Of a stretch of DNA of 26,422 bases, positions 9,001 to 26,240 are shown in pieces. Position numbers and translations under genes: made by a program. How positions within the stretch are numbered: position 1 is the stretch's first letter; every line of letters begins with the position of its first letter. Origin of the DNA: a virus; IMG/VR virus record IMGVR_UViG_3300013286_000048, positions 1 through 26,422 of that record; one strand, given 5' to 3'. The notes beneath the pieces are model-generated. The model saw only the letters and a program-made list of their open reading frames with translations. It made no database searches and was not told where the DNA came from.

Positions 9001-9338
9001 GTATTATTAATGTAATCCTGAATCATATAATCAGGATTTTCAGGATCAAACTTTGACGCTTGTGCAATTAGCGAATTATCTTCTTGCGGCTGCTTTTGTT
9101 TGCTAACCGATGTTTTGTTTTGAGCTATTTGTTGATCTGGAGGAAGAAAACTTTCACCAGTTACAGATGCCTTGTTTTCAGCAATCTGATCTTCAGGACT
9201 TTTGTATACTTGCTGAGTTTCAGCCTTTTGCTCTGTATTCTCTGTTTTGGATGGCGTTAAAACAGATTCCTTGTTCCTTTTGATTTGTTCGTCAGGAGGG
9301 AGCAGTACATCAGAGTCTGTGTTAGTTTGTGCCGCCAT
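1..9338 (-). CDS. Giant polyvalent protein (>=3112 aa, 3' end outside window) with zincin, K-W-C-T-G-G, LRR and ART-PolyVal domains
   Basis: One frame stays open from the ATG at 9338 to the window edge, giving 3112 codons with no stop. Visible order by residue: three degenerate P-x-QI-xx-NK-x-SV repeats (15-78); a long unassigned helical part; Gly/Ala-rich hydrophobic stretches (about 614-690 and 720-778); a zinc-protease motif HEGGH (1002-1006) with EEYIAE (1095-1100) as the likely third ligand region; GTKWCTGG then GDFYLYF and VAIR (1946-1981); a leucine-rich solenoid with L-P-x-L repeats (about 2110-2330); a FVSRREAFKVAKAAGQL segment (to about 2459); and an ADP-ribosyltransferase domain from YRG (2533-2535) through SFTDVPEVA to QIKLSDPATYDD and DIRFMP (2799-2804). 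This combination is typical of phage polyvalent proteins, which are thought to be injected with the DNA. The start overlaps the 658-aa gene by 17 nt, consistent with translational coupling. Ejection and enzymatic activity are inferred; the ART call is the firmest. Confidence 0.9.
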   Translation of the reverse strand, partial: MAAQTNTDSDVLLPPDEQIKRNKESVLTPSKTENTEQKAETQQVYKSPEDQIAENKASVTGESFLPPDQQIAQNKTSVSKQKQPQEDNSLIAQASKFDPENPDYMIQDYINNTTDGKAIYELHKANPKLKFGVKQSLAMMDYYNSPQNTDRHPFVNAATGLANFFGKAYSGVGTTAKDVADAAAPLSFLTGIPSTALGMGEAGTKQGMFAPSDSYDSQYTQWAMQAYAAQREGRPVPPKPQPPKEGEKSVYYQSLEDEKAQEDYLKKYAEWSKNAEFLDYITGKGMPEEPKYKQAKPTETEKLKEVGKDIYSVGGSIGGVPLEVYQMARKAQEGGIELADNLGLAIDESGLISWNPKSKAEKLVNFMTRNDIDADRARVNAKAPSNIGKILYYAGEAPTEDGGQQSYAQLLRPLLASYLVPSVKERMLKDPTLTEGQATQQWMKDSQNWGSATLQKWASQLPKEKEDVATAAQLFIPEANVFGPAMEALNIAGKGFREAARLNELESLLPQAMAMTDIAQTAREGGTFLVDERGNITAAPKENAPPRTKEQMREDKYNSNLLHKDLQDKIEAERLERGNGTEIKLGPWGVPKPYLWANGISQNANAAADALKKYATTGALGTAIPFTTGAIGAYGNRNEGPLGMAAGFLKGVEYGAAGELAGYGALRGIGSTAGVLADLGKVQQGLRGTGGNVFQIAGNLPTSTKATQNLFGGKIGKISSPVANWFAQNLVPMAYGGIEAGTLAAAMGIIESTPHEDMPSEVANGMAMMMIPHIISSAIHESPTARENRIRQENASIYYAKKDASDETKRNMNDIRDYRNVVNNQRGIVAQKYEDLRTLVVNPKSKPEDIKKAQEDYQQADDKLTQFMSANSETMREYGRQQDLLFSNIHRGLNGPLLAGQSNVGLEVLTKDQILQRLIDQNKELASTPQGMAKLEMIASQDGFVVTSAGGIELRAGTDLADALKNDPIMFDPSKTTGIINMDNAKRRAGIYGSTIYDALTHEGGHLYGRTEEFQKTNSELLSALFSTNIYHDDGTIASQDTGMVSNEFLKDLMWNNYLRGRTDEKKKAWLSSQGMWDEANNRMIDKEVIPYMREEYIAEMAGNSLHSMVLNGGETALMRWARTSNSNNMLGRAVNAVLGVGGPNPMKPSPVLGIEFTPEIQAATQKSIQAVNDYNGHIAPVIDSQPTIEISQKDMKKNKGLLKKYGVNSGMYQTQVYATIRNAKGEVVSKVSVANPSAAEGSWKVDPSTGRPVQTKGYGQIPDEVNNVQIPEGGSITVTREVAMQPDGESPIMLSDSQIKKNQKARRDLILNALGITGEIPEEGITWRGTFTPDQIQNIKNLPENVVPKAIKDVILSMNETLASGEGQRWLAEYSPTSGKKGKRKSLMMKQYDVVPIGMHFTKDGNFNVTVISATRLFNKIHAWGAEFPHILDMWNGSKSEFFNDFVTKYLANWQAGREGWEGLDADETKAKLKRDIFNNFLNLKDKDTEFKNQNRFYLKGKQADLDRTIMSMRADHVSSLQKSNAQNIPVDYYKAKINAMPESGLPYEERPEEGETAPRVEEERRPSAIDLGITAAHSKEEKPFGVRYVSPQRDGETKDDYVNRIMAAREEMENQDTSYNPIAGSQYDYMEASRKVGGSGLFFMPASMEIREEGTKQHLEFFDRELENSGIKAKPATMAALDAFIHNYVGEKYGAYVYGGAPPKGELFPKIDPEKIKNYYQKVVRNATPAQAADFPPDWLRIRNMSQQEFDNSFNQDRVDEITQFRVNALAKSANYLLWEMKESNQTDLQKKINEINDAFASGDIGLWEEKQAELEKLNGDTYENLRNQAFRGSYTPAEVAAILNTSAKFRVNAGYNESGEMVPLIQNISNGNEAVPNEVSGATASKIADYMRQGMSSKEAYTKGVFDVIQARVKKRGVFTGWKKYDQSSDMGDAETLNADCAGTKWCTGGSVGTANSHLSGGDFYLYFDQGEPQVAIRTDNGQIAEVRGRGDSQNITKPEYDKKAEEFIRSGEGPTGGESYLYDRDFRKMAVQVMETGKVPEEAYKYYNQLGIFIPPRARMARGDFDQEYIAPFRDHAPTQADIFDEKTGVLKTSYDYSFRDKERDKYRVIKGDINFPQGLPPIGGGVVDLPNLEECGNIDAASFGSVSLPKLKKSGFLNFKRVEGDIDIRSLETSGDILVNKYRYNLNLPQLKNCADLMAGNVKSINAPNLEECRDIDFTRRGEIYLKELTLPKLEKAGRILADYSNSVVLPRLKECTNLFAVDSGYLYAPELKKVESINGAKTTIIPKIDSWDRIKAVGAKEVVAPMEALLAIDISKDYLGGNVRFVNSDNGRIYDFDALSKPQFVWADVTPNELPPTIKEDTLKSGYAEGTKVSAAAFETGHPRNELVYETGKSHEEIMPFPLSDIEGAENRKFNRIEREGWRYGFEIVFPDGSKKFVSRREAFKVAKAAGQLREPKTEAEKVDTLRGVLHSDMVDYEGKSGISFMPASKLDEAHAKAIESGDMEEAQRLVDEKAKEMGFPIAYPLYRGIRKKLNESRVMQTQGGRATLSFTDVPEVAKLYTHDRDMFGGIKPSETGSVKKVYLNLKNPLDLREYGTKVNLGEIIENYTNYDFRPNTEEDPNTTFTIEDLKKLFVRLQKLEKSTQFESDIQASDNEGMFRLRHFGDVREAIQELIDNDDADLPEKIDNILQGIELDTYALADNQWFIKALKQRGYDGLIHKDTIEAGKEFFNEQSVAGKPIEEVKGIDVEDDYSHDTYRPFESSQIKLSDPATYDDQGNLIPLSQRFNQQSNDIRFMPKSDDNNEKYDASIHDGGINAFKEKLKSFVYSLPDPSEENYDFHIEKDSTFGLVLDYFSGAFDNLGARYDEHGASTGSKYIHISIPTGEGETLENTYETDRENHKITIRNHDVSVFRAREFGFPTKVIQVDNFDTKENVLKAATRLSDHLANILEPYREYLAEKAKAEGQLKEPEDGKVDWEGFKTKTQETAKPLAGIAPIGGISFKPEQQIELDKADAVQKAGFATKLPKKVPASGHYTIAMQLTDDGREVQYQVDPTSTITPKVGSIEDINGEQVGMLEADRHTTRGDNMGGPLHPFLISNQVIARL
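9105..9299 (-). repeat. Three degenerate N-terminal peptide repeats in the giant protein
   Basis: Residues 15-26, 48-59 and 67-78 of the giant protein each read P-[DE]-x-Q-I-x-x-N-K-x-S-V (PDEQIKRNKESV, PEDQIAENKASV, PDQQIAQNKTSV). They are separated by polar linkers. They could be docking motifs or virion-packaging tags; this is not established. Confidence 0.8.
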
Positions 9339-13054: not shown

Positions 13055-13900
13055 TTATTTGTTCCAAACTGGTTGAAATCCAAGGTCGGGGAATACCATG
13101 TCCTCGTATGGAGCCATGTGCGACATATTTGTAATGGTAGCCTTTAGTTTTGGGCAGTAAGCAGGCTGTCCAGCCGTGTGCCTATCAATGCAGTTTAGGC
13201 AGGTAGGAATATAGTCGGCATTCTTACTTTTATCGGACTTGTGACCCCAAGCTCCATTAGCAAACTCATACCTATCAAGATCAGGCAATATCCCGTGATC
13301 TTCTAGCCATGCATACACCTGATCATCAGTCCAGTCCCTAAGCAAATATAGGCTCATCGGAGACCCCTCGGCGTATCGGATGTCCTGAGTCATTGGTACA
13401 TGGCCCTTAATAGGGTCTGTATCGCATTGTTTTGTTCCAATGAATACTCCATGCCAAGGCCAATTAAAATTTCCAGTAGGACGGCCTAAAAAGTCGATAC
13501 CGCAAAGATACTTTTCATTCGCTACAGGACGCTCGGTTCCCAGAGACAGGACAATACATTTAGTTCCCCATTGCTGATATTTCAGGAGATCAAACCTCAT
13601 CTTGCCCGTATTTACATCAGGGCCATCTGCTATTGCTACCCTCATTGGTGGGTACTCATGCATTTCAAGATCCCACAATTTAATCAGCTTGTCGCTATAG
13701 GCATACCTTTCGCGAAAGTACGGCTCCCTGAACTGGACTACAGGAAGGTGAATATTGCACGCAAACTTCAAAAAATGAAGTAGGGCAGTAGAGTCTTTGC
13801 CGCCGCTCCAAAGAACGGCTGACTTAGGCCACCTATTTATCCACTCTTTTGCTTTTTCCTTAGTTTCAGATATTAATTTTTGTGTGTATGTTTCATTCAT
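13055..13900 (-). CDS. PP-loop ATPase of the PAPS reductase / adenine nucleotide alpha-hydrolase superfamily
   Basis: Start ATG 13900 overlaps the preceding stop by one base (TAATG); the longer frame to 14038 would overlap that gene by 139 nt. The protein is 281 aa. Residues 32-37 are SGGKDS, the PP-loop that binds ATP pyrophosphate, followed by TALLHF. The C-terminus has Cys234, Cys237 and Cys249 (CLNC and YCP), possibly a metal-binding or sulfur-handling site. Family members adenylate a substrate, as in sulfate reduction, thiolation, or Dnd-type phosphorothioation (DndC). PAPS-reductase-like genes are common in phages but their role is mostly unknown. Here the gene sits inside the virion block with no dnd or cys partner visible, so I cannot choose a substrate. 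Confidence 0.88.
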   Translation of the reverse strand: MNETYTQKLISETKEKAKEWINRWPKSAVLWSGGKDSTALLHFLKFACNIHLPVVQFREPYFRERYAYSDKLIKLWDLEMHEYPPMRVAIADGPDVNTGKMRFDLLKYQQWGTKCIVLSLGTERPVANEKYLCGIDFLGRPTGNFNWPWHGVFIGTKQCDTDPIKGHVPMTQDIRYAEGSPMSLYLLRDWTDDQVYAWLEDHGILPDLDRYEFANGAWGHKSDKSKNADYIPTCLNCIDRHTAGQPAYCPKLKATITNMSHMAPYEDMVFPDLGFQPVWNK

Positions 13901-14436
13901 TAAATAGCAACAGCCGCTGCAAGTGCAATGGCTCCAGCCGCTGCTCCTCCGGCGGCATACATTGATCCAGTAGCAGAATTTTTTGATTGTGCATCGTTGA
14001 CGGCCCCTTGGTACATTGCTTGCTGGTAATTCTGCCAATTCTGATTGTTTGCATTAACTGCTTGAGATTCAGAACCCATCATTTGATTAATCCAGTCCAT
14101 ATTCGATTGTGCGTTGCCTTGCGCCCCTTGAATCGCTGAATTAATTATTTCCCTACCCAATTTTGCGCGTTGTGCTGCGGCAGACTCAAGCTGTTGTGCG
14201 CCAGCGGTAGGGTTGATGCCAGTAACTGGAGGTTGTCCGATTAATGCTTGCGCTTGAGCAATATTTTGTGCGCGAAGAGCCGATCCTTGCTGTGTTGCGG
14301 CATCATAAAAACCACTTTTTCCGATGGTGCTATCTTTTAACCCAGTACCAAGGTAATTCTCAAGACCCTTAGTCTTTGACCAGTTGTTAAGCTGATCAGA
14401 CCACAAATAATTACCTGAAGAATCTTGGTTAACCAT
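13900..14436 (-). CDS. 178-aa Gln/Asn-rich protein with hydrophobic Gly/Ala C-terminus, candidate ejection protein
   Basis: ATG 14436 (MVNQDSSGNYLW). The body is rich in Q, N and A with a long predicted helix (about 80-150). The last ~20 residues are Gly/Ala/Ile/Val-rich (AAGGAAAGAIALAAAVAI), which could be a glycine-zipper membrane helix. A soluble helical protein ending in such a segment fits a phage protein that inserts in the host envelope during DNA delivery. This is inference; no family is recognised. It directly precedes the PP-loop gene, with one shared base. Confidence 0.82.
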   Translation of the reverse strand: MVNQDSSGNYLWSDQLNNWSKTKGLENYLGTGLKDSTIGKSGFYDAATQQGSALRAQNIAQAQALIGQPPVTGINPTAGAQQLESAAAQRAKLGREIINSAIQGAQGNAQSNMDWINQMMGSESQAVNANNQNWQNYQQAMYQGAVNDAQSKNSATGSMYAAGGAAAGAIALAAAVAI

Positions 14437-15452: not shown

Positions 15453-17582
15453 TTAGCATGGGTTGGCTAGTCGGTATTGCTGGGCAGAGTTCGTTGCTTC
15501 TTGAGTTGCAAGGTTAGATGCCTGTTGGATTGCGTCATCGAGCGAGGTATAGCTTGTGAACGATGCTGTAGCGGTTGCCGACACAGCAGGCGTTGAGTTG
15601 TTGCAACGGAGAGTTATGGTTCGTGTTTGCGTGCTAGACCATGAGTTTATTGCATTGCCAGCAGATTCTTGTGGAGCCGGAGCGAGATCAACTTTCTCAC
15701 TAACCCCGTCCTCGCCAACTACGCAATATTGTGTCTCGTTTGAGCTTGGCAATCCTACTGACTTTTCTGACCAGAGGTCTTGGAACATACGGATTGCATC
15801 AACACCCATAGCTCCACACCATTCAACTAAGAAGCTAAACGCCTTGTCCACATCGTATGTGTAAGTTGATTCACAGGAAGTTGAAGTAAGGCGAGAAACA
15901 TTTTCAGTAGTTAGCCTGCGAGATTGTGTTTGTAAAATTCCAAGTTTTGCAATTTGCGAAGCGTATTGGCTGGTTTCAAACTGATAAGGCTCTGTTGCTG
16001 CTAGGATTCTGGTATTCAGGATGGGGCTATATGTTCCCTTTGTGCCTCGGTACGATACCTTCACATCGACCGTTCCAGCAATCTGAGAGCAATCCAACTC
16101 CCCATAAGCCAGTTGCTTCATATCCATTGAGTCGCCCAGCAAGGCGGTCTCAAACTGGCAGTAAATCCTATTAACAAGCTCGTCTGTAGTGCCGTCCTGA
16201 TTGATTTGCAAGTATGTGTCATAACGCTCCGGCGAGAACGCCTCCCACATATGATTGAATGAACCATCGCTGGTGCTGGCATAGTCTACTGAGAATGCAA
16301 AGATGCGAGGCTGACCAGATATAATGTTTGAAGACCAGCAGACAGGCCGGATACCAGTCCAAACTCCAGCCCATGCAGGAACTTTTGTCTGATTCCATTC
16401 TGATGCCGGAGCATAATCCAAGACCATTGTAACGCTGTTCGTAGGCTCCAGATACGGGATGCTGTACAGCAGATAATTCTCAAACGATGCCGCGCATACG
16501 CTGCTGGCATCTGCCGCCATGAGCCTCTTTGCCTTAGCCATTTCAATATCCTTGTATAGAACCTGACTAGACAGATACGAGGATGAGGCCACATCGACGC
16601 TGACAAGACCTCCCTGAGAGTACCACCACATCATGCCAGCTTGGAATGCGATGCTGTTTCCAGCAATACATCCGATGGTAGGATATAAGGTAGATTGGAA
16701 GTTGGGAGTAACTCCCCATTGGGCGCGATCTAACACGCCGCTCGCTAAGCTGTATGTGGATTGATCAGTAAATACATAAAGTCGAGTGTCGTTGTTTTGA
16801 CCGACATAATCGTGCATCGCAGTAACTGGCCTTGGGACGCTGAAGTCACCTCTTCCGGCTCCCTCGGTTCGTTCTTTCCAACTCAGCGGGTCTGCAAGGT
16901 CGGATGCGGCAATAATGTTGCCAGTCGCCACCCACAGGCGACTTCCTGAGTATGCCATCCAGTATCCGATGGGCATCTTTTCAGCGATCTGACCAGACTT
17001 GTCAGAGCCGTCCCAGTATCCGGCTTGATTTATACCATCTTGGACGATGACTAGGCGGTGGGAGGGGACAACGGTCGTCGTCGAGCTATTACCAAGTGAT
17101 GCAGACTGCGTAGCAATAATGAAATTTACATTCTTTATATTCGGGTCGAGCGAAATATTGGAAAGCCTGTATTCATCCCAAGAACGCGGTTGAGTAAGCG
17201 GAAACGGCGCATAGTATACTTTTCCGTCAACACAGAAAACCGCATAAGTAATTTCAGAAACAGCAACGCCATTGCCATCTGGGTTATATACAGCGGCCTG
17301 CTGCGTAATCGCAACTCCCGCTTGGTTTGTTATTGTTTGAGCCGCTTGAAATTGCTTGTTTGCGTTAAATACTACACCGCCTTGGAAGTTTCCGGCAGGT
17401 AGCGATAATTTCATTTTAAACCCATTGCGGGTCTGAACCACTCCGCCCCTGCAAGTAATATTCTGACCGAATTTGTACTGGTCTTCAGGAAGCGTCCAAG
17501 GATTCCTAACGGAATTCATGCCATGCATCCACGATGCGGTGGCTTTTATCTGCCTGCCGGATGTGATGTTCGGACTTTTCAT
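15453..17582 (-). CDS. Tail tubular protein B / tail nozzle-like protein (709 aa)
   Basis: Start ATG 17582 overlaps the upstream stop (TAATG); a TTG two codons earlier is less likely. The N-terminus (SVRNPWTLPEDQYKFGQN, then RGGVVQTRNG) and the motif RLYVFTDQSTYSLASG (about residue 270) are the pattern I associate with podovirus tail-tube tip proteins (T7 gp12, P22 gp10 class), which form a hexameric beta-propeller nozzle. The protein is long, beta-rich, and ends in a Ser/Thr/Ala-rich ~60-residue tail. It follows the 1191-aa adaptor-like protein as gp12 follows gp11 in T7. Length is close to the T7 protein (about 790 aa). Homology is judged by pattern and synteny, not by a search. Confidence 0.8.
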   Translation of the reverse strand: MKSPNITSGRQIKATASWMHGMNSVRNPWTLPEDQYKFGQNITCRGGVVQTRNGFKMKLSLPAGNFQGGVVFNANKQFQAAQTITNQAGVAITQQAAVYNPDGNGVAVSEITYAVFCVDGKVYYAPFPLTQPRSWDEYRLSNISLDPNIKNVNFIIATQSASLGNSSTTTVVPSHRLVIVQDGINQAGYWDGSDKSGQIAEKMPIGYWMAYSGSRLWVATGNIIAASDLADPLSWKERTEGAGRGDFSVPRPVTAMHDYVGQNNDTRLYVFTDQSTYSLASGVLDRAQWGVTPNFQSTLYPTIGCIAGNSIAFQAGMMWWYSQGGLVSVDVASSSYLSSQVLYKDIEMAKAKRLMAADASSVCAASFENYLLYSIPYLEPTNSVTMVLDYAPASEWNQTKVPAWAGVWTGIRPVCWSSNIISGQPRIFAFSVDYASTSDGSFNHMWEAFSPERYDTYLQINQDGTTDELVNRIYCQFETALLGDSMDMKQLAYGELDCSQIAGTVDVKVSYRGTKGTYSPILNTRILAATEPYQFETSQYASQIAKLGILQTQSRRLTTENVSRLTSTSCESTYTYDVDKAFSFLVEWCGAMGVDAIRMFQDLWSEKSVGLPSSNETQYCVVGEDGVSEKVDLAPAPQESAGNAINSWSSTQTRTITLRCNNSTPAVSATATASFTSYTSLDDAIQQASNLATQEATNSAQQYRLANPC

Positions 17583-20500
17583 TACCAATAATAGACAGAA
17601 TCTATAACAGGGTCAGTAGCGTCTCCGTATACCAGATTATTTACCTGAATATTCTCCATTGCGTGTCCAGCCATACTTTCGTTCTGGTTACGAAGGTATG
17701 CAATTGCCTTTGCCCAATACTTTTCGGACTGATCGGTGAAGTCCTTATCTTCAAGATCGACGGCGTGCAGTCCAGCCATAATCGCACGGGTATTTTCAAT
17801 CGGAATGTAGTCGTAAACGCTGGTGATTGTGGGGTGGGCCATGCGGTAGATGATCCTAGCCCATGAACATTGCTGACCGATGCGAATCCGGCGGTATTTC
17901 GGGTTAACTTCGCTCGGATGGTACTGACCAATCAATGCCATGTCGTTGCTGCGACCATAATCGTAGGCGTAAAGGCTAACATAACCTTGAGTAATCGGCT
18001 TTTCGATGTGAAGGATTGCTTTTACCAGAGTTGGAGCGAGGATTGAATCAATAAAGAATGTGCTAGATACAGAATTTCCCGTGCTTTGATACGAAATTCT
18101 ACCATCTGTAGATACCAAGTTGGTTGCTTGTGCTAGTGTTGGGTAAAGCTCAATGGTATTTGCATCAACAAAGCGTGCATAGTACAGCACGGGATTTGCC
18201 TGCGTGCTTGCTGTTAGGCTATTGGGCAGAACATCTCCAGTATTTGGCCTTACGCTTACTTGATCACCAGTATCAAAGATAGAATTAGGTGCTGCAATGC
18301 TAGTAGATGACTCCGGCGTAAAGCTGCGTATGATCTTCATGCTGAGTTGACCAACACCAAGTGATGGTATCGACCCATTCATGAATGTAACGGGTGTTCC
18401 ATTGGAATTCGTAAGGTAGATATTGTTGCCGGAAATATGCACAAAGTAATTTGTGTTTGCAGCAAGCCCATATGGGAGGTTGCCAGTAGATGCAAACTGA
18501 ACCACCTCGCCATTTGTGAGGTACTCGACTGAGCTAGGCGTTAAGAGTGCAGATCTATTGGTGCTATTGTCAGATGGAATGTATGCCTTTGCATATGCAG
18601 GAACGCGAATTGAAAAATATGATTGACCAACTCCAACAGCGGTTGGTTTAACCAAAGATCCGTTAAGGTATACATTGGCAGTTTTGCTGCTTATTTTTTG
18701 AAGCGTATAAGGGACATTGGGACTAAATCCAGTAGGTAGGAGATAGTCAGAGGCAAGGTAAATTGTATCACCTGTATTTACTCCATTGAAATCACCAGTC
18801 CAAACTCCGTTAAATCCGATGCTGAAAGCCCTAGATAGCGACACATAAAAGTCACCAGATGATGCGCCAGTAATAGTTACCTTCGAGTAATCCGAATTGA
18901 GGATTGTAAATGTTCCCGTGCTAGTGTTGAGGGGAGCCTCTGCCCTGTATGCAACTCCGGCCTGAAGCGGAGCAGGTAATGTTCCAGTAGAAGAAAACTC
19001 AATTTGCACACCAGTAGATGGTGTGATTTCCACATTTGGAGGGGATGTGTACCCTGTGCCTTCGGTGACGATTGTTATTGCGGTCACAGCACCATTGCTG
19101 GCTTTAGCTGTGGCAGTAGCACCAGATCCTCCGCCACCAGTAATTCTTACGATTGGATCGTAAGCATAATTAACTCCGCTTCCGCCGGAGGGGACTGTGA
19201 TATAAGAAACAAAAGATGTCTGTAGCTTTGCAACAGCCCGTGCGCCATTTGCAGAAGTTCCAGATACAGCTACGCAAGATACATTTGTTGCACTTGCTGT
19301 TACTGCGTTTGTAAGGGTTATTGTGAGTCCTACTACCGCAGAAATCTTTGTTCCATCAGGAATATTATCTCCAAAGATGCTTTGTCCCGCTGCCAATCCG
19401 TTGGATGAACTGACAACAATGTCCGCGCTTCCAGAAGTCATGGTAGCCGTGAAGTAAATATTTGCTTGCGGAGGTGAAATTGTAATCGTAGGGGCCGTAA
19501 TATACCCTTGACCAGCTTGTGTAATAACGATTGACCCAAGGGCGTATGTTTGTGAACCAGAAGCATCTGGAATCATCACCGCATACCCTTCTGTATTAGA
19601 AGTTATTTGCGAAGTTCCTGTGGGAGGGGTTGGAGGTGCAGAAAAAGTAACGATAGGGGCGTTAGTATAGCCCTTTCCTCCAGTAATCACTTGTACGCTT
19701 GTGACTCCGCCGACAACTACTGCCGTTGCGGTTGCTCCAGAACCCGTAGGAGTCTGAATGTTTAATCCAGCGGCTGTAATTTGACTGGTAGTACCTGTGC
19801 TGGCAACGGCAGGGATGAGTTTAACGAGTGCGCTAGTTCCGATAAGTCCAGCGGTAATGGTAATCGGGTTTACAAGAACGCTTGCAGATGATGCCGCAGA
19901 ATCAGCAGCATTCGTGTGCAAAGAGATCGTAGTTGTGTCAATGACATTGACAAAATAGTTCTGACCAGCAAGCAGGGGAGGAGGAAGCGTTCCACCAGAG
20001 GTATACGCCTGAACGGAATCGTTTTGATTGTAGTAGTGAGGAACTGAAAACTTAAATGTGGTTTCAGGTGAGATTGGCTTACGAAGATCAACATTGAACT
20101 GACCGCTATTGCCAGAAAGAAAGATAGGATTGATGTTGTTTTGAGCGTCAGAGAATGATCCGAATACTTGCAGGTTCTGATTGTCCAGATTTTGCGTAAA
20201 GTATGTCGTGTTTTCTACTAGAGGCGAAGGCAATGATCCTGAAAAAGATCCTCCTGTTGCCGCAGAAAAAGTAATTTCATTTGGAGAATCCAGAGATATT
20301 GACGGGACTCCATTTACAAGGTTGATGCTAGTAAGTAGAGATGTATTTCTTGAATCCGTAAGCACAACACCATTGGTGGTAGAACCGACAATACTTTGAA
20401 GCGATACAGGGTTGTTTTTAGACTTTGCATCCAAAGAGTTTTCGTAAAGCTGGATCGTATAGCTGTCATCTACGCCAATGTAATAGGTTTTACTTGCTAT

Positions 20501-21157
20501 CAGAACGCTAGGAAGGGTTCCACTTGCAAGGCTCAGGATAGCGGACTGACCAGATGCCAGTTGATGTACCGTTTGAGATATGAATTTTGTGATGGGTGAT
20601 ACTGAAACGCTGCGAGTTTGGATTGTAACTCCATCAGGCTCAATTGTTCCATATGGAAAATCAGATTGGGCGTGTACAGGTACAAGCAATCCATCAACTT
20701 TTGTTCCATCGGGCAATTGTGTGCGAAGTTCGCGATTGTTGCTGTCAGTTCCTATCACTCGGATCTGAATTCCGGCATCCGCTTGGTGTTCTGCGACCGC
20801 CACAAGCTGAGAGGGCTGGCGGATATCCATGATCGTGCTGACAAATCCCCTATCATCCCATGCCCATGAAACGGGATTATACATCCCTCCCTTGTTGACA
20901 TTGTATTGGAACAGCCGTCCCCTGAAATAGGTGGGAGATCCGTCAATATTAATGGCGAGAGGAACTTCAATCCCGCGAGGGAGCGTGATTGTCTGACCAT
21001 CCCATCCCGTGCAGACATCTACCTCCTGATTAATATGGAAGTAATGCCCAGACTCCATAAGGGTCTGGACTGCCTCGGTCAGCTTACGAAATACCTTGGC
21101 CTGATCTGTGGTTGCAAGAATTTCAGAAGCCTCGTCAATGATCTCGCTGACGAACAT
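17582..21157 (-). CDS. Tail adaptor/tubular-A-like protein with a huge internal repeat insertion (1191 aa)
   Basis: ATG 21157. Residues 1-205 (helical SEIIDEASEILATTD, then beta segments with TLPRGIEVPLAI) and 1034-1191 (LHIEKPITQGYVSLYAYDY, YRRIRI, then a helical end) look like the two halves of one head-tail adaptor or tubular-A protein, a family usually about 200-400 aa. Between them lie about 830 residues of repeats. One type is L-P-x-x-L-x-A-x-x-x-Y-F followed by a strand, seen about seven times (for example GTLPPPLLAGQNYFVNV and GNLPYGLAANTNYFVHI). The other is a G-x-GY-x-x-x-P motif (GGKGYTNAPIVTF, GQGYITAPTITI, GTGYTSPPNVEI) with GSGATATA, common in phage fibre and decoration proteins. 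The insert probably projects from the tail. It precedes the nozzle-like gene with one shared base. Confidence 0.82.
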   Translation of the reverse strand: MFVSEIIDEASEILATTDQAKVFRKLTEAVQTLMESGHYFHINQEVDVCTGWDGQTITLPRGIEVPLAINIDGSPTYFRGRLFQYNVNKGGMYNPVSWAWDDRGFVSTIMDIRQPSQLVAVAEHQADAGIQIRVIGTDSNNRELRTQLPDGTKVDGLLVPVHAQSDFPYGTIEPDGVTIQTRSVSVSPITKFISQTVHQLASGQSAILSLASGTLPSVLIASKTYYIGVDDSYTIQLYENSLDAKSKNNPVSLQSIVGSTTNGVVLTDSRNTSLLTSINLVNGVPSISLDSPNEITFSAATGGSFSGSLPSPLVENTTYFTQNLDNQNLQVFGSFSDAQNNINPIFLSGNSGQFNVDLRKPISPETTFKFSVPHYYNQNDSVQAYTSGGTLPPPLLAGQNYFVNVIDTTTISLHTNAADSAASSASVLVNPITITAGLIGTSALVKLIPAVASTGTTSQITAAGLNIQTPTGSGATATAVVVGGVTSVQVITGGKGYTNAPIVTFSAPPTPPTGTSQITSNTEGYAVMIPDASGSQTYALGSIVITQAGQGYITAPTITISPPQANIYFTATMTSGSADIVVSSSNGLAAGQSIFGDNIPDGTKISAVVGLTITLTNAVTASATNVSCVAVSGTSANGARAVAKLQTSFVSYITVPSGGSGVNYAYDPIVRITGGGGSGATATAKASNGAVTAITIVTEGTGYTSPPNVEITPSTGVQIEFSSTGTLPAPLQAGVAYRAEAPLNTSTGTFTILNSDYSKVTITGASSGDFYVSLSRAFSIGFNGVWTGDFNGVNTGDTIYLASDYLLPTGFSPNVPYTLQKISSKTANVYLNGSLVKPTAVGVGQSYFSIRVPAYAKAYIPSDNSTNRSALLTPSSVEYLTNGEVVQFASTGNLPYGLAANTNYFVHISGNNIYLTNSNGTPVTFMNGSIPSLGVGQLSMKIIRSFTPESSTSIAAPNSIFDTGDQVSVRPNTGDVLPNSLTASTQANPVLYYARFVDANTIELYPTLAQATNLVSTDGRISYQSTGNSVSSTFFIDSILAPTLVKAILHIEKPITQGYVSLYAYDYGRSNDMALIGQYHPSEVNPKYRRIRIGQQCSWARIIYRMAHPTITSVYDYIPIENTRAIMAGLHAVDLEDKDFTDQSEKYWAKAIAYLRNQNESMAGHAMENIQVNNLVYGDATDPVIDSVYYW

Positions 21158-21167
21158 TTAAGATGGG

Positions 21168-21515
21168 TTATTTTTGGCTTCCTTCTTTAGCCATGCTGTT
21201 TAGGAAATCCTCGTCGCTACCAGCACCGCCTTGTGAGCCACCAGCGGGAGCGGAAGGAGGCATCTCGGTAGGAGGCCCGCCTGCGCTTGCTCCAGTTTGC
21301 TGTGCAACGCTTTGAGCTAGGCTATCAACTCCAGATGCGAGTTGTGAAATAAGCTGATGAATTGCGTCAAAGGCAACTTTGGGCATGGAGATCATAACGG
21401 ATCCATCATCCACGCCTTGCGGCATTGGAGGGGCCATGTCTCCGGCAGGAGCTTGTCCCATTCCTTGCATGGGAGCGTCAGGTTGTTCGGTAGGGGGCAT
21501 AGTCTTGTCAGCCAT
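21168..21515 (-). CDS. 115-aa Pro/Met/Gly-rich hypothetical protein
   Basis: ATG 21515 (MADKTMPPTEQ). The ends are Pro/Gly/Met-rich and disordered-looking; the centre (about 45-75) is a helix, VAFDAIHQLISQLASGVDSLAQS, shown here in part as AIHQLISQLASG. The C-terminus has DEDFLNSMAKEG. The central helix with disordered flanks could be an oligomerising assembly protein. No family recognised. Its stop is ten bases before the adaptor-like gene. Confidence 0.8.
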   Translation of the reverse strand: MADKTMPPTEQPDAPMQGMGQAPAGDMAPPMPQGVDDGSVMISMPKVAFDAIHQLISQLASGVDSLAQSVAQQTGASAGGPPTEMPPSAPAGGSQGGAGSDEDFLNSMAKEGSQK

Positions 21516-21519
21516 AATA

Positions 21520-21906
21520 TTAGTCGTTGGTTGTTTCGGACGCTGCTTTTAGACCCATGTCGATGGCATCCTCATCGTTAGGTTCCTCGGACTTTTCCTC
21601 GGCAGATTCTGTGGCTTCTCCGGCCTTGATCCCATGGATCTCAAGTTCAGTTGTATAGCGGGATACTTCTTTCCCGTTTACCATTACCTTTTCTTCGCGC
21701 TCCATTACTTTCTTGTAATGAATAACGGCGGTTCCATCCTTGGGAAGATCCTTCAGGGCATTCTTTTCGTGGAACCAGAGTGAAGGGTAGTGAATGTGCG
21801 TGTCGGCCTCGGCTTCAACTTTTTCAATGTGATCCGCGCCTTTCATTGAAAGGTCTTCTCCAAGATCGTGAAATCCTTCGGGTAAATTAATTTTTTCGTG
21901 TGCCAT
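21520..21906 (-). CDS. 128-aa acidic hypothetical protein
   Basis: ATG 21906 (MAHEKINLPEGFHD), no Shine-Dalgarno site. Residues about 30-90 form a compact charged region with HIHYPSLWFHEKNAL and a beta hairpin around VNGKEVSRYTTELEIHGI. The last ~35 residues are strongly acidic (ESAEEKSEEPNDEDAID) and probably disordered. No catalytic motif. The placement between fibre-like genes and tail genes suggests a structural or assembly role, but nothing in the sequence proves it. Confidence 0.8.
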   Translation of the reverse strand: MAHEKINLPEGFHDLGEDLSMKGADHIEKVEAEADTHIHYPSLWFHEKNALKDLPKDGTAVIHYKKVMEREEKVMVNGKEVSRYTTELEIHGIKAGEATESAEEKSEEPNDEDAIDMGLKAASETTND

Positions 21907-21931: not shown

Positions 21932-22351
21932 TTAAGATAGTGTCAAGGTTGATGATCTAACAATTCCATCTGATCCTTGATACTTAAATACAAGATTTGT
22001 ATTGTTAAGCGTTTGAATAACAAGTTCTCCCTTTTGTACAGGTGATGCATTAGGGTTTACAAACTGACCAAATGCCCTAATAAAATAACACATAAGACCC
22101 TCACCTGAGTTGCGAGAAATACCCAATATAGATGCCGTGTTGTTTGGATCGCAAGGGACATTCCAAATTACTTGCCGATTCACTACCGACTTCGTGATCT
22201 TTCCATACAATGCATTGACAAGATTATCAATGAGGGATGGAACGCTCTCATGCGAGACGCTAGGATATGGTATATCTAGTCGGCAGGCAGATCCGTATGG
22301 GTTACCTACTGGAGGATTGTTTTGACCAAATGGTAAAGGATCGCAGGACAT
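21932..22351 (-). CDS. 139-aa appendage protein with shared N-terminal anchor-like module
   Basis: I chose ATG 22351 (MSCDPLPFG), two bases after the upstream stop; ten further residues are possible but would overlap it. Residues 28-94 repeat almost exactly the module in the 226-aa protein, including YPSVSHESVPSL and WN-x-PCDPNNTA. The C-terminus (ELVIQTLNNTNLVFKYQG, then DGIVRSSTLTLS) resembles short beta-rich tips of phage tail and fibre proteins. The module may anchor different tips to the same virion site. Homology between the two genes is directly visible; the anchor role is inferred. Confidence 0.82.
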   Translation of the reverse strand: MSCDPLPFGQNNPPVGNPYGSACRLDIPYPSVSHESVPSLIDNLVNALYGKITKSVVNRQVIWNVPCDPNNTASILGISRNSGEGLMCYFIRAFGQFVNPNASPVQKGELVIQTLNNTNLVFKYQGSDGIVRSSTLTLS

Positions 22352-22353
22352 GA

Positions 22354-23028
22354 TTAAATATAATGCACATCTAAAAGGCAATTATTTCCAGTTATAGGAG
22401 TAGTACTTGAATCTGGCAATGTGCCTGTAATTGCAAATGAAATTCCTGTAGAAAACTTTACTCCTGTTGGTGGCATAAAATTAGAGTTTCCACCAAAACC
22501 ATTGTATCCACCTATAACAAATGATAATTTAACTGGAGTTGTTCCAACTACTACAGAGCTACTTACCGAATCATAAAATTTTAATGTATAAACTGTATTA
22601 CCTGCCAACGCCCCCATCCCAAAATATACTCCCAAAAGAATTCCGGCACTTGATTTAACAGATGTGAGATTTAGTCCATCAGATGCAACTAAATGCAATA
22701 CGCTAGAGTTTGCAGTATTAAGAGTAGGAGGTGCAAGGACTATCGGGCAGCTTGGATCATCCCAAATAACTTCCAAAAGGTCTCCAGAAGATGAAGATGA
22801 GGTGGAGGTAGCCAATGTCAGAATATTAGTTCCTGCATTCCAAGTCCCACCAAGTCCACTTGCTCCTGCGGCAAAAATAATAACATTCGTCGTCAAGTCA
22901 ATGACAGCCAATAGTCTTGTAAAGTTAAAACCATAAGCAGTTACGGCTGTTGTAAAATTAAGAGTACCCGCCCCTGCTCCAGCAGGGGTGAAAGTAGGGT
23001 TTACGGAAGATGGGAGTATTGTTTTCAT
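22354..23028 (-). CDS. 224-aa beta-rich hypothetical structural protein
   Basis: ATG 23028 (MKTILPSSVNPTF). The composition is Gly, Ser, Thr and Asn-rich with alternating hydrophobic residues throughout, typical of a beta-sandwich or beta-helix virion protein. There are short runs such as TSTSSSSSGD, VIGGYNGFGGNS and FMPPTGVKF. No signal peptide and no catalytic motif. It sits between the two genes that carry the shared module, so it may cap, fold or decorate the same appendage. The end of the gene is two bases upstream of the next start. Confidence 0.78.
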   Translation of the reverse strand: MKTILPSSVNPTFTPAGAGAGTLNFTTAVTAYGFNFTRLLAVIDLTTNVIIFAAGASGLGGTWNAGTNILTLATSTSSSSSGDLLEVIWDDPSCPIVLAPPTLNTANSSVLHLVASDGLNLTSVKSSAGILLGVYFGMGALAGNTVYTLKFYDSVSSSVVVGTTPVKLSFVIGGYNGFGGNSNFMPPTGVKFSTGISFAITGTLPDSSTTPITGNNCLLDVHYI

Positions 23029-23031
23029 AGA

Positions 23032-23712
23032 TTATCCAAAGATAAGGGCGTTTGTAATGGTTTGAGATAAAGCAGTTCCAGTAAGAGAGCCAGTCAAATT
23101 TACAGCATTAGTTGCATTAGTTGCATTTGTTGCATTTGTGGCATTAGTTGCGTTAGAAGCGTTTGTAGCATTAGTTGCAAGAGTCGCTGTAGCTGCGTTG
23201 CCAGTACAAGATCCAGAGGAACCCGTGACATTACCAGTAACATTTCCTGTTACGCTCCCAGTTATGTTTCCAGTAACATTGCCAGTAACATTGCCAGTAA
23301 TGTTTCCTGTAAAAACTCCTGCAATAGAACCAGTTCCAGTAATGGTAGGATTGGTGATTGCAGGTGATGTTAGCGTTTTGTTGGTTAGAGTCTGTACTCC
23401 ATTCAGGGTAACTTGGTTAGCCGGAATTGGTATAATGTTCAAGACCCTAATGATATAACAAAGAAGTCCCTCTCCCACCTCTCTTGGGTATCCAGTAATT
23501 GCAGCAGTATTATTAGGGTCGCATGGGATATTCCAAACAACCTTACCTTGATACACATCCTTTGTAATTGTTCCGTACAGGGCATTTACCAGATTATCTA
23601 TCAAGCTGGGAACAGACTCATGTGATACGGAAGGATACGGCGTATCAGGGTTACAAACGCCATTATACGCACCGCCATATCCATAATCTGAGCCAGAGCA
23701 TCCGCAAGACAT
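23032..23712 (-). CDS. 226-aa tail-fibre-like protein with TGN[VI] and NAT repeats
   Basis: ATG 23712 (MSCGCSGSDYGYGG). Residues 25-91 are the module shared with the 139-aa protein. After a linker come a four-residue repeat T-G-N-[VI] (about residues 131-162) and a three-residue N-A-T repeat (about 179-202), then a Leu/Thr-rich end. This fibre pattern, with TGNVTGN followed by an A/T/N-rich stretch, is common in phage tail and structural proteins and suggests a long trimeric stalk. Upstream is a 44-nt spacer, the longest in the window, before the winged-helix-like gene. Confidence 0.85.
   Translation of the reverse strand: MSCGCSGSDYGYGGAYNGVCNPDTPYPSVSHESVPSLIDNLVNALYGTITKDVYQGKVVWNIPCDPNNTAAITGYPREVGEGLLCYIIRVLNIIPIPANQVTLNGVQTLTNKTLTSPAITNPTITGTGSIAGVFTGNITGNVTGNVTGNITGSVTGNVTGNVTGSSGSCTGNAATATLATNATNASNATNATNATNATNATNAVNLTGSLTGTALSQTITNALIFG
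23105..23176 (-). repeat. Eight tandem 9-bp repeats in the fibre gene
   Basis: Units of GCATTAGTT on the plus strand and close variants (GCATTTGTT, GCGTTAGAA) follow each other without gaps. On the coding strand they encode N-A-T/S triplets. Slippage here would add or remove three residues at a time. Confidence 0.85.
23225..23320 (-). repeat. Eight tandem 12-bp repeats in the fibre gene
   Basis: Degenerate 12-bp units such as GTAACATTGCCA on the plus strand, two of them identical and adjacent (23273-23296), encode the four-residue T-G-N-[VI] repeat on the coding strand. Confidence 0.8.
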
Positions 23713-23756: not shown

Positions 23757-24017
23757 TTATGGTTCCGAAGTTGGTGAATAATGCCAAACAGCAGTTATAC
23801 CCCTTCCCGTATCAATTCTAAATTTCTTGCGATGAAGTTTATTAAGTTTGATTAGTTTATTTACCCTTGAATGCATTGTGGTGATTGGCAATGACATTTT
23901 TTGAGCCATTACTTGCAGGTTTATCCATCCATCCGGCACTTCGTCTACATTTCCAGTAGAAAAACTTTCATTCATCATTTCTTGAAGCCAGTCGTTAGCA
24001 GATTTATTTGTTTTCAT
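23757..24017 (-). CDS. 86-aa winged-helix-like DNA-binding protein
   Basis: I chose ATG 24017 (MKTNKSANDW), two bases after the phosphoesterase stop, with GGAGG about 14 bases upstream; a longer frame overlaps that gene. Residues about 34-70 (WINLQVMAQKMSLPITTMHS, then VNKLIKLNKLHRKKF) match a helix-turn-helix with a recognition helix around TTMHSRVNKL, followed by a two-strand wing ending ITAVWHYSP. It is probably a small transcription regulator. Its target is unknown; the 44-nt spacer just downstream could be an operator, but I see no palindrome there. Confidence 0.75.
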   Translation of the reverse strand: MKTNKSANDWLQEMMNESFSTGNVDEVPDGWINLQVMAQKMSLPITTMHSRVNKLIKLNKLHRKKFRIDTGRGITAVWHYSPTSEP

Positions 24018-24019
24018 TT

Positions 24020-24784
24020 TTATAGCGGCAACCTCCACACCTCGCCGTGTTGCCTTTGTGTTATTTGTAGCGAGGATTGGTTCAGGGATTCACAATAGTG
24101 TCCCCAGATAAATGCTTGCGTCCATGCGAATGTGCTAGGTCGGTTCTTGGCATACTCCAAAGCCCCTCGCCTTGTTAGAGTTCCAATATTGTAGCCTGTT
24201 CCGCCGTGCTTTGTTTTAGCACTTGCTGTTGCTACTTTGTGGGTGTGTCCAAATACTATTTTTCTGCGTTTCCCATCGCAATAGGCCGAAGCCATGTCTC
24301 TAGCTGCCTGTTCATTGTAAATCGTACCATGGGTAAAACCAATATCAGCAATGTCTACAATCTGCTCAATACCTGTATATGGAACGAGGCGAGCTTTTAA
24401 CTTTTGAGCAGTATCTTCAATGGACTGGATAATTTTATAAGCGCAGTAAGCAGTAACGCTGTTTTTAGAATAAGTTAGCTTCCACGCTCTGTCTTCATGG
24501 TTTCCACAAAGAATGTATGGATCTTTACATCCTGCCATAAGTTCTCGCAAGTGCGTTAATCCAGTATCAATGTCGGGTGTTACTTCGTCTCCATCGTTGC
24601 CTGATCCTAATCCATTACCCATGAGCGCAGTAAGGTCGATGAAATCTCCTAGATGAAGAATCGTATCCGGCGAAAATTTGTCTTTAAATTTTAAGACATG
24701 ATCCCATGCTTCTTCATCAATATATTTTGCATGACTACACGATATTGCGAGTAGCCTTTTCCATTTGTGAATTATGTTTGCCAT
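24020..24784 (-). CDS. Calcineurin-like metallophosphoesterase with altered first motif
   Basis: ATG 24784, one base overlap with the preceding stop (TAATG) and AAGGA upstream. The 254-aa protein shows the family blocks in order: LGDFID (45-50), CGNHEDR (93-99), THG (151-153) and FGHTH (178-182), which bind the two metals. The first block, normally D-x-H, is C16-S17-H18, so the usual metal-bridging aspartate is replaced by cysteine. The protein could therefore use one metal, or cysteine could replace the ligand. Substrates in this superfamily range from nucleic acids to phosphoproteins and nucleotides; this gene gives no clue. It sits between lysis genes and the regulator. Confidence 0.88.
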   Translation of the reverse strand: MANIIHKWKRLLAISCSHAKYIDEEAWDHVLKFKDKFSPDTILHLGDFIDLTALMGNGLGSGNDGDEVTPDIDTGLTHLRELMAGCKDPYILCGNHEDRAWKLTYSKNSVTAYCAYKIIQSIEDTAQKLKARLVPYTGIEQIVDIADIGFTHGTIYNEQAARDMASAYCDGKRRKIVFGHTHKVATASAKTKHGGTGYNIGTLTRRGALEYAKNRPSTFAWTQAFIWGHYCESLNQSSLQITQRQHGEVWRLPL

Positions 24785-25026
24785 TAGTGGAATTCCTTTT
24801 CTTGTTCGTCATCTGGATCAAAATCGCCATCAACCCATTTCCCAACATGATTCTGAATAGCAAATTTATTTCCCTGCAAGATGTGGGTGTGTTGAGTATC
24901 GCCATCTTCGTCAACCCAATTAATAAATACTGCAAGGTTTGGAAAATGTTCTGTGATGATACCAATAGCTTTCTGGAGATTATTCCACTCGCATTCTGTT
25001 ATTGTTTCTGGCCTCGGAGGAATCAC
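24784..25026 (-). CDS. 80-aa hypothetical protein
   Basis: A GTG at 25026 overlaps the endolysin stop as GTGA, the same junction type as in the u-spanin/holin pair, so I prefer it to the GTG at 25050. The protein is acidic at the end (WVDGDFDPDDEQEKEFH) with a short beta-like centre (LAVFINWVDEDG, then THILQGNKFAIQN). No family recognised. It lies between the endolysin and phosphoesterase genes with overlaps at both ends, so it is probably translated with them. Confidence 0.7.
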   Translation of the reverse strand: MIPPRPETITECEWNNLQKAIGIITEHFPNLAVFINWVDEDGDTQHTHILQGNKFAIQNHVGKWVDGDFDPDDEQEKEFH

Positions 25027-25514
25027 AAGGTCTTGACATGCACGAAACACGCGAGGTCTTCAAGTCTTTTATTCCATCCTGCCAGAAATTTTTGATCGTA
25101 TGGGTGTTTTTCGACAATTAACGAGTTTACTCGTTTTTGATCATTAATAAATGCAATTGGGTCATGGTTTGTCCTGTTCAGGATCAAATTCGCCTGCTTA
25201 ACACCGCTTACAATTTTGCAATTGAACCAAACTTCTCCCAGAGGATACTTCATGTCTTCTACATGGAACCGATTCCAATTTCTCCAGTACAAATTAGTCG
25301 CTCCATCCATCGTGAGATTGCGTATGTCGTCAACACTAAGATTAAAAGGACTCTCTTTGAATTCTCTGAAGTCGCATCCCCACTTGGTGACCCCTCCGTC
25401 ATCCCCTTCAACTTCCTCTGCAACGACGAACTTGTAGTCCCCGTAATGCCCCTTGGCAAAGACGCATTCGTGTTCAAATATGAACGGAAGGAACGACTTA
25501 AATCGTTGTGTCAT
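25023..25514 (-). CDS. Endolysin, GH108 N-acetylmuramidase-like
   Basis: ATG 25514, overlapping the two-TM gene by 17 nt. The 163-aa protein has an N-terminal F-L-P-F-x-F-E-H-E (catalytic Glu probably E16), then DDGGVTKWG at 38-46, matching the D-x-GG-x-T-x-x-G signature of glycoside hydrolase 108 muramidases, then IRNLTMDGATNLYWRNW, the usual helix with aromatic residues. These enzymes cleave peptidoglycan between N-acetylmuramic acid and N-acetylglucosamine. There is no signal peptide, so it needs the holin for release. The usual E-G-G after the catalytic Glu is replaced (E-C-V), and the spacing to DDGG is longer than typical. The lysis setting supports the call. Confidence 0.82.
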   Translation of the reverse strand: MTQRFKSFLPFIFEHECVFAKGHYGDYKFVVAEEVEGDDGGVTKWGCDFREFKESPFNLSVDDIRNLTMDGATNLYWRNWNRFHVEDMKYPLGEVWFNCKIVSGVKQANLILNRTNHDPIAFINDQKRVNSLIVEKHPYDQKFLAGWNKRLEDLACFVHVKTL

Positions 25515-25875
25515 GTGTCAGCAGATAGTCTTTGGGATCTCTGCGAAGCTCTGTGATATGAGTTTCTGAATCCGGCAATTCTTGGTTGGAATGTATATCT
25601 TGAGATTCGTCTAAATGCTGAAGGACGCTCATTCCCTTAAAGTCAACTACTGCTTGCCCTGTGATTAATGTTGTCGCAAGAGCAGCAAACGCCATCACGC
25701 AAAGGTTTGCTAATTCCATTATGTCTTTCGCTACTTCCGCATGGCTCATTATTAGGAATGCAGAAATAACAAAAACAAACAGGACACACGCACAGGCTAA
25801 AAGCCCATAAAGGGCTTTTTTTGACTCCGATGCCTTCTGGGATAACTTTGATGAGATTAACTGTTCTTTGTTCAC
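25498..25875 (-). CDS. Two-TM holin-like membrane protein (125 aa)
   Basis: I chose GTG 25875 because it overlaps the u-spanin stop as GTGA; a longer frame to 25959 would overlap that gene by 88 nt. The protein has a polar N-terminus (KLSQKASESKK), a first hydrophobic helix (ALYGLLACACVLFVFVISAF), a short loop, a second one (ELANLCVMAFAALATTLI) and a charged C-terminal tail with ELRRDPKDYLLTHD. Its size, two helices and place beside an endolysin and spanin fit a class II holin. No sequence family is recognised, so holin is the leading guess, not a proof. A palindrome resembling a terminator lies inside this gene. Confidence 0.78.
   Translation of the reverse strand: MNKEQLISSKLSQKASESKKALYGLLACACVLFVFVISAFLIMSHAEVAKDIMELANLCVMAFAALATTLITGQAVVDFKGMSVLQHLDESQDIHSNQELPDSETHITELRRDPKDYLLTHDTTI
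25799..25822 (+). terminator. Terminator-like hairpin inside the holin-like gene
   Basis: AAAAGCCC, loop ATAAA, GGGCTTTT followed by more T (seven in all) on the plus strand. Its U-tract lies on the plus strand, so it would stop transcription running against the genes. The stem has only four G-C pairs and may be chance coding sequence. Confidence 0.3.
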
Positions 25876-26240
25876 AAAGCAAATCGCCAAGCTGTCTTGA
25901 TCCCGATATACCCCACAACGCATAGGATGGAGACAATCGCAATTCCCCGCCAAAACCATAGTTCCTTTAAAGCCTTCTCTTGCTTGCTATGCCAGTATAC
26001 AACATCATTCTGTGCCTTGTTTAGCTCCTTGGATTGCTGATCAACTTGTGCCTCGTAATTTGTAATCGCAGACTCAAGGTTGCTGAGTGCCTTTTGCCCC
26101 TCTTGCTTTACAAGCGGCTTTAATTTTTCAACCGAAGTGCGAACCGCTACAACAGAAGGAGCAGTATAGGAAACTTTCTCTTTATTGGACGCACATCCAA
26201 TAAGAATTATAGATGCACATACAATAAGAAGTTTCTTCAT
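25872..26240 (-). CDS. u-spanin candidate: lipoprotein with C-terminal transmembrane helix (122 aa)
   Basis: ATG 26240 overlaps the preceding stop as ATGA and has AGGA at good spacing. The protein starts MKKLLIVCASIILIGC, a signal peptide with lipobox L-I-G-C, so Cys16 would be lipidated and held in the outer membrane. Residues about 30-92 form a charged coiled-coil-like stretch (Q/E/K-rich). The C-terminus has a hydrophobic helix, WRGIAIVSILCVVGYIGI, that could sit in the inner membrane. A single protein joining both membranes is the layout of the unimolecular spanins (T1 gp11 class), which fuse the two membranes in the last step of lysis. T1 gp11 has a beta-rich middle, so the coiled-coil here is a difference. 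Confidence 0.82.
   Translation of the reverse strand: MKKLLIVCASIILIGCASNKEKVSYTAPSVVAVRTSVEKLKPLVKQEGQKALSNLESAITNYEAQVDQQSKELNKAQNDVVYWHSKQEKALKELWFWRGIAIVSILCVVGYIGIKTAWRFAL

Follow-up and report, generated by a model that had tools for sequence, protein, structure and literature searches.

The window analysed here, a stretch of 26,422 nucleotides (positions 1 to 26,422 of IMG/VR virus record IMGVR_UViG_3300013286_000048), contains two genes, named A and B, whose proteins share a module close to the N-terminus. The genes and features around them, all on the minus strand, are:

23757 to 24784, minus strand: genes for a 93-aa protein and a metallophosphoesterase (254 aa), the upstream flank of the slot that holds the fibre genes
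23032 to 23712, minus strand: gene A, 226 aa; from N- to C-terminus a Cys-rich N-terminus, the putative anchor module, a repetitive shaft and a C-terminus ending ...TITNALIFG
about 23446 to 23649, minus strand: the module in A, PDTPYPSVSHESVPSLIDNLVNALYG...GEGLLCYIIR
about 23032 to 23060, minus strand: the motif that ends A
about 22354 to 23031, minus strand: gene for a 224-aa protein without the module, proposed to make up the distal part of fibre A
21932 to 22351, minus strand: gene B, 139 aa from an ATG or 149 aa from an upstream TTG; N-terminus, module and short tip
about 22076 to 22276, minus strand: the module in B, DIPYPSVSHESVPSLIDNLVNALYG...GEGLMCYFIR
21932 to 22075, minus strand: the tip of B, a C-terminal knob resembling the last ~42 residues of Vi-type tailspikes and fibres
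21168 to 21906, minus strand: a pair of short conserved genes (128 and 115 aa), the downstream flank of the slot
15453 to 21157, minus strand: genes for conserved virion-type proteins of 1191 and 711 aa, following the slot

The shaft of A contains the repeats TLTNKTLTSP, GNVTGN and NATNAT. Chance similarity of A and B is ruled out by BLASTP of the whole proteins (E = 7e-39, single comparison). The module is identical at 50 of 67 residues, and 23 of these, PYPSVSHESVPSLIDNLVNALYG, form the longest unbroken run. A preliminary description of this DNA had noted a shared module of about 67 residues in the 226- and 139-aa proteins, with an identical stretch of more than 20 residues; both observations hold, with coordinates that differ from ours by 6–10 bases. 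Its count of 17 differing bases in 60 was a close estimate, which we correct to 19 of 69 over the 23-residue run, all of them synonymous.

Over the module as a whole 73 of 201 bases differ, giving 30 silent and 17 residue-changing codon differences. The raw numbers of synonymous and nonsynonymous changes are similar (about 39 and 34), and constraint on the protein is seen per site, with pS at 0.83 (dS being saturated and not estimable) and pN at 0.22. Among related phages, the ten closest pairs (dS 0.11–0.48) have dN/dS values of 0–0.17. The module is under purifying selection, as the preliminary description had proposed in claiming that it is strongly held at the protein level. Exact DNA matches between A and B are short, at most 8 bases within the modules and 9 over the whole genes.

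Many other phages carry the module. IMG/VR was searched with one protein query and then with a 50-row profile, which gave 60 and 182 confirmed loci, respectively (individual loci are referred to below by L numbers). After removal of duplicates, 92 distinct module proteins were kept, so that in uncultured phage contigs the module begins at least 92 different proteins. It is N-terminal in all 92, preceded by 9–73 residues (mostly 9–42) and followed by 22–1283, some of the proteins being clipped by contig ends. Invariant or nearly invariant residues include PYP, ES, PS, NL, LYG, W, PCDP, EGL, CY and the final R. A cysteine lies no more than seven residues ahead of PYP in every protein, and two more invariant cysteines lie inside the module, in PCDP and LCY. 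Three invariant cysteines per chain are unusual among fibre proteins; they may bind metal or form disulfides. The proteins start with MSC in 72 of the 92 cases.

No match to the module was found in GenBank phages, in Pfam or NCBIfam, or in the PDB by profile search. In PHROGs there were weak matches by single members only, to unannotated families (best E 0.0011). A profile search of bacterial and archaeal genomes, one per species, produced candidates, none of which was confirmed, and no description of the module was found in the literature. The phage group is known only from metagenomes. The module is best read as a new family of anchors within a known class of proteins, the modular receptor-binding proteins.

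The regions behind the module are informative. In ten long members they match collagen repeats, right-handed β-helix/pectate lyase, Peptidase_S74 (the endosialidase chaperone), GDSL lipase, the K1-lyase C-terminal domain and RCC1, together with numerous PHROG families of tail fibres and tailspikes. These matches identify the regions as the distal parts of tail fibres and tailspikes. BLASTP detects similarity between the modules in all 4186 pairs of proteins and similarity between the tips in only 782, and the tips can be aligned over 70% of the longer tip in 65 of the 4186. In four pairs (L006/L051, L022/L025, L016/L022 and L013/L051) the modules are 88–91% identical, yet tip similarity is absent. 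Constant modules joined to dissimilar tips imply that the tips have been swapped behind a constant anchor. The family therefore has the organisation of modular receptor-binding proteins, with a conserved N-terminal part and variable C-terminal parts that contain fibre or spike domains. The proposal that A and B are tail-fibre proteins, alike in the N-terminal module and unrelated at the tips, is supported by these results. Certain C-terminal classes recur across module groups, ending ...GPITVNPGVTLTVPSGSTYTIV, ...ITARRVR or ...SGSEITIVSLSVA (for example in L020, L041, L052 and L098).

Two module copies are found in 10 of the 40 records searched, and one copy in the other 30. The 40 include both L001 and L002, whose records carry near-identical copies. 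Contig ends truncate some of the one-copy loci, and the two-copy counts are therefore lower bounds; L049, for example, was counted as one-copy, and the contig edge there (1–648) cuts a further module gene of which only the last 20 module residues match. In the module tree, B of the window falls together with the second copies of L001, L003, L008 and L006 (96/89), and A groups with their first copies on a weaker branch (84/88). The gene order A then B is common to these five genomes. Each group has residues of its own: CxxDTPYP and xG[KQ]xVW are fixed in group A, and CRxDIPYP and VNR[QR]V in group B. From the sequences, the pair is most likely older than the divergence of the five phages. In a tree of the backbone genes, the clade of the window mixes loci that have two copies (9 of 18 rows) with loci that have one, and two-copy loci are rare elsewhere. 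Given this pattern, and the single copy in three quarters of the records, a second copy is non-essential.

The preliminary description had ascribed the pair to an old duplication. The age stands: synonymous sites in the shared module are saturated, which rules out a recent duplication. The duplication itself is no better supported than the gain of a second fibre gene from a relative. When neighbours are ranked by similarity, the two window copies come no higher than 26th and 10th on each other's lists, their pS and pN lie near the family medians, and their identical 23-mer is also present in L004. The identity of A and B is therefore an instance of the general conservation of the family and not the mark of a specially tight pair, and a resemblance of this typical degree does not favour duplication within the lineage. 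Horizontal acquisition, which we would rate at slightly under an even chance, would account for these ranks, for the placing of the copies in different groups of the module tree, for the scatter of the two-copy state on the backbone tree and for the ease with which tips recombine. In AU tests the two copies are rejected as sisters in L001 (p 0.001) and L003 (p 0.008). The same test leaves the window pair as possible sisters (p 0.18), the module providing only 68 columns, and the shared A–B order fits an old duplication equally well.

The tip of B is very short. Its last 42 residues are 50% identical (E 5e-7) to the C-terminus of a 671-aa fibre, a Kayfunavirus protein, that occupies the gp17 position in T7-like phages of Salmonella Typhi. 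Further matches are to Vi01_171c, which is the Vi tailspike of Kuttervirus Vi01, and to a protein of 825 aa from Sinorhizobium phage AP-16-3. All the alignments end at natural C-termini, which marks the tip as a Vi-type knob. Judged by its sequence, B is an anchor plus a knob, without a central domain, and may be a fibre reduced to the minimum.

With a tip consisting of only this 42-residue knob, B may be a stub and not a second working adhesin: a decayed tailspike that has lost its central domain and that either occupies attachment sites or is a relic. Module and knob are indeed all that B has, and truncated anchor-bearing proteins have been reported in KP32viruses of groups C and D (PMC6872550). 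An equally short B was found at no other locus. We nevertheless consider a stub somewhat unlikely, since the reading frame is intact and stops exactly at the natural C-terminus of the knob, and since module and knob are both conserved, where a relic would soon lose them.

The C-terminus of A points to a different arrangement. An end motif of this kind (NALIFG, AALIFG, FAIALS or TSIALG) is present in 7 of 85 distinct complete module proteins. In all seven the next gene encodes a protein with a common N-terminal domain of about 85 residues, as the 224-aa protein does in the window, and this holds for none of the other 78 (Fisher p 2e-10, an overstated value because the pattern was written after the ends had been seen and several of the loci are related, leaving about 4–5 independent lineages). 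The domain is restricted to genes that come immediately after those of module proteins ending like A. Beyond the window it is encoded in L006 (10292–10972), L072 (9663–11411), L001 (5736–6326) and L027 (5547–6194). The 224-aa gene and its relatives have no match in GenBank phages. The simplest reading of the sequences, and the one they suggest, is that two genes, those for A and the 224-aa protein, together encode a single fibre.

The motif and the gene that goes with it follow a B-type module in L006 and an A-type module in the window, and thus appear to move together. Tentatively, and with rather less confidence than doubt, we propose that these fibres use two standard joints, namely the Cys-containing N-terminal plug of all the proteins and, in a subset, a short hydrophobic C-terminal end (NALIFG, FAIALS or TSIALG) on which a separate protein docks through the new ~85-residue domain. 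The end and its gene would move as a unit between plug types. If this is true, the phages possess a three-piece kit for host recognition, whose parts are exchanged between A-type and B-type plugs.

The fibre genes lie in a fixed slot at nearly every locus, after the metallophosphoesterase and 93-aa genes and ahead of the 128-, 115-, 1191- and 711-aa genes. The 128- and 115-aa flank is present at nearly all loci long enough to show that side. The slot adjoins conserved virion-type genes, so that the module genes sit within a virion structural cluster. The 1191- and 711-aa proteins are candidate carriers of the socket that would receive the module. Neither has a match in GenBank phages or in PDB profile searches with their alignments, and an AlphaFold2 model of the 711-aa protein (17 relatives) is unusable (pLDDT 38). 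The 711-aa family has a weak but consistent match to a PHROG internal-virion family, in 16 of 17 members. A head-closure or baseplate name for the 1191-aa protein was dropped because its PHROG matches lie mostly in the repetitive middle.

At 3–9338 on the minus strand, an open frame of more than 3100 aa runs off the contig and is the largest gene in the window; a relative (L127, 5462–15775) has an open frame of 3438 aa at the corresponding place. The giant frame possibly encodes an internal or ejected virion protein with several domains and, together with the internal-virion match of the 711-aa family, suggests that the phage is a podovirus.

On the basis of these observations we think it likely that the module is the virion anchor of a family of tail fibres and tailspikes, and that this phage encodes two such fibres that dock at the same kind of site. 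The module would be the virion-attachment domain of fibres and tailspikes among a set of uncultured tailed phages, where every anchor carries one distal part out of many that can be exchanged. One fibre would consist of A, probably lengthened by the 224-aa protein, which would bind the ...NALIFG end, and the other of B, with its anchor and tailspike-type C-terminal knob. With both anchors docked in the same kind of tail site, the virion would carry two tips. Silent-site drift would have left the anchors without shared DNA long enough for easy recombination, the protein surface staying fixed. The module is thus probably a standard plug that permits interchangeable or paired host-recognition tips. 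What we infer is that the proteins are trimers, that a socket receives them, that A touches the 224-aa protein, and that virions contain both A and B. Bearing on the trimer are the collagen, S74 chaperone and tailspike knob domains of the distal parts, and the poor monomer model of the module, which AlphaFold2 with 50 relatives predicts at an unusable pLDDT of 55. Given this model and the absence of a homologue of known structure, the case for attachment is built on position and modularity.

An alternative is a branched fibre, in which a single module protein, either A or B, makes contact with the tail and holds the other one. Branched complexes are common where there are two receptor-binding proteins, as in KP32, G7C and Kuttervirus (PMC6872550, PMC11414711), and the group-specific residues kept by A and B would suit two binding roles. 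In the Klebsiella cases, however, a short docking peptide is all that the second protein has, whereas here both carry the full module, and 30 of the 40 records have only one module protein; we regard branching as unlikely. Invertible tips of the Mu/P1 type are improbable, as A and B point the same way and their longest exact DNA match is only 9 bases.

Several known systems resemble the arrangement with two docked fibres. The N-terminal domain of T7 gp17 is the anchor of a trimeric fibre; the present module is likewise N-terminal, the phages may be podoviruses, and the knob of B is found on the gp17-position protein of T7-like Salmonella phages. The module differs in having no sequence match to gp17 or to any PDB chain. 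K1E/K1-5/SP6 and the KP34/KP32-type podoviruses place two receptor-binding proteins on each virion. The genes lie near each other, and the proteins combine conserved N-terminal elements for attachment with unrelated distal parts, some members being truncated; the second protein usually has a docking peptide of 7–30 residues and the first a separate anchor (PMC6872550). Here, in contrast, both proteins carry the same module of ~67 residues, which matches no known anchor in the libraries searched.

The TSP1–4 complex of Kuttervirus and other Ackermannviridae also has adjacent tailspike genes, shared N-terminal domains and swapped distal parts, and the C-terminus of the Vi01 Vi tailspike matches the knob of B, but it is a branched complex of myoviruses built on gp10-like XD/TD domains (PMC11414711). 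The present phages have at most two copies, and their module has no sequence match to a gp10-like, XD/TD or XD2/XD3 domain (Pfam, PHROG, NCBIfam and PDB), though the folds may be alike. When phage S117 was given a tailspike gene sharing a domain with its own, the gene recombined with its relative (PMC11414711). With only short DNA matches between A and B, silent divergence plausibly stabilises the two-fibre arrangement. The pair would then be a natural case of two fibres with one attachment domain that escape recombination of the S117 type. The class of mechanism, modular receptor-binding proteins, is already well known; the finding is useful in that the module marks fibre genes in widespread uncultured phages without annotated relatives, where it can be used to find host-recognition genes and to follow the exchange of tips.

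Some other genes in the window are worth adding. A PAPS-reductase/CysD-like protein is encoded within the virion gene cluster (13055–13915, minus strand), with weak NCBIfam CysD matches and an SGGKDST motif. Upstream of the fibre slot there is a GH108-type endolysin (25023–25514, minus strand; Pfam PF05838, PHROG 315), and a 122-aa lipoprotein-like gene at 25872–26240 looks like a spanin.
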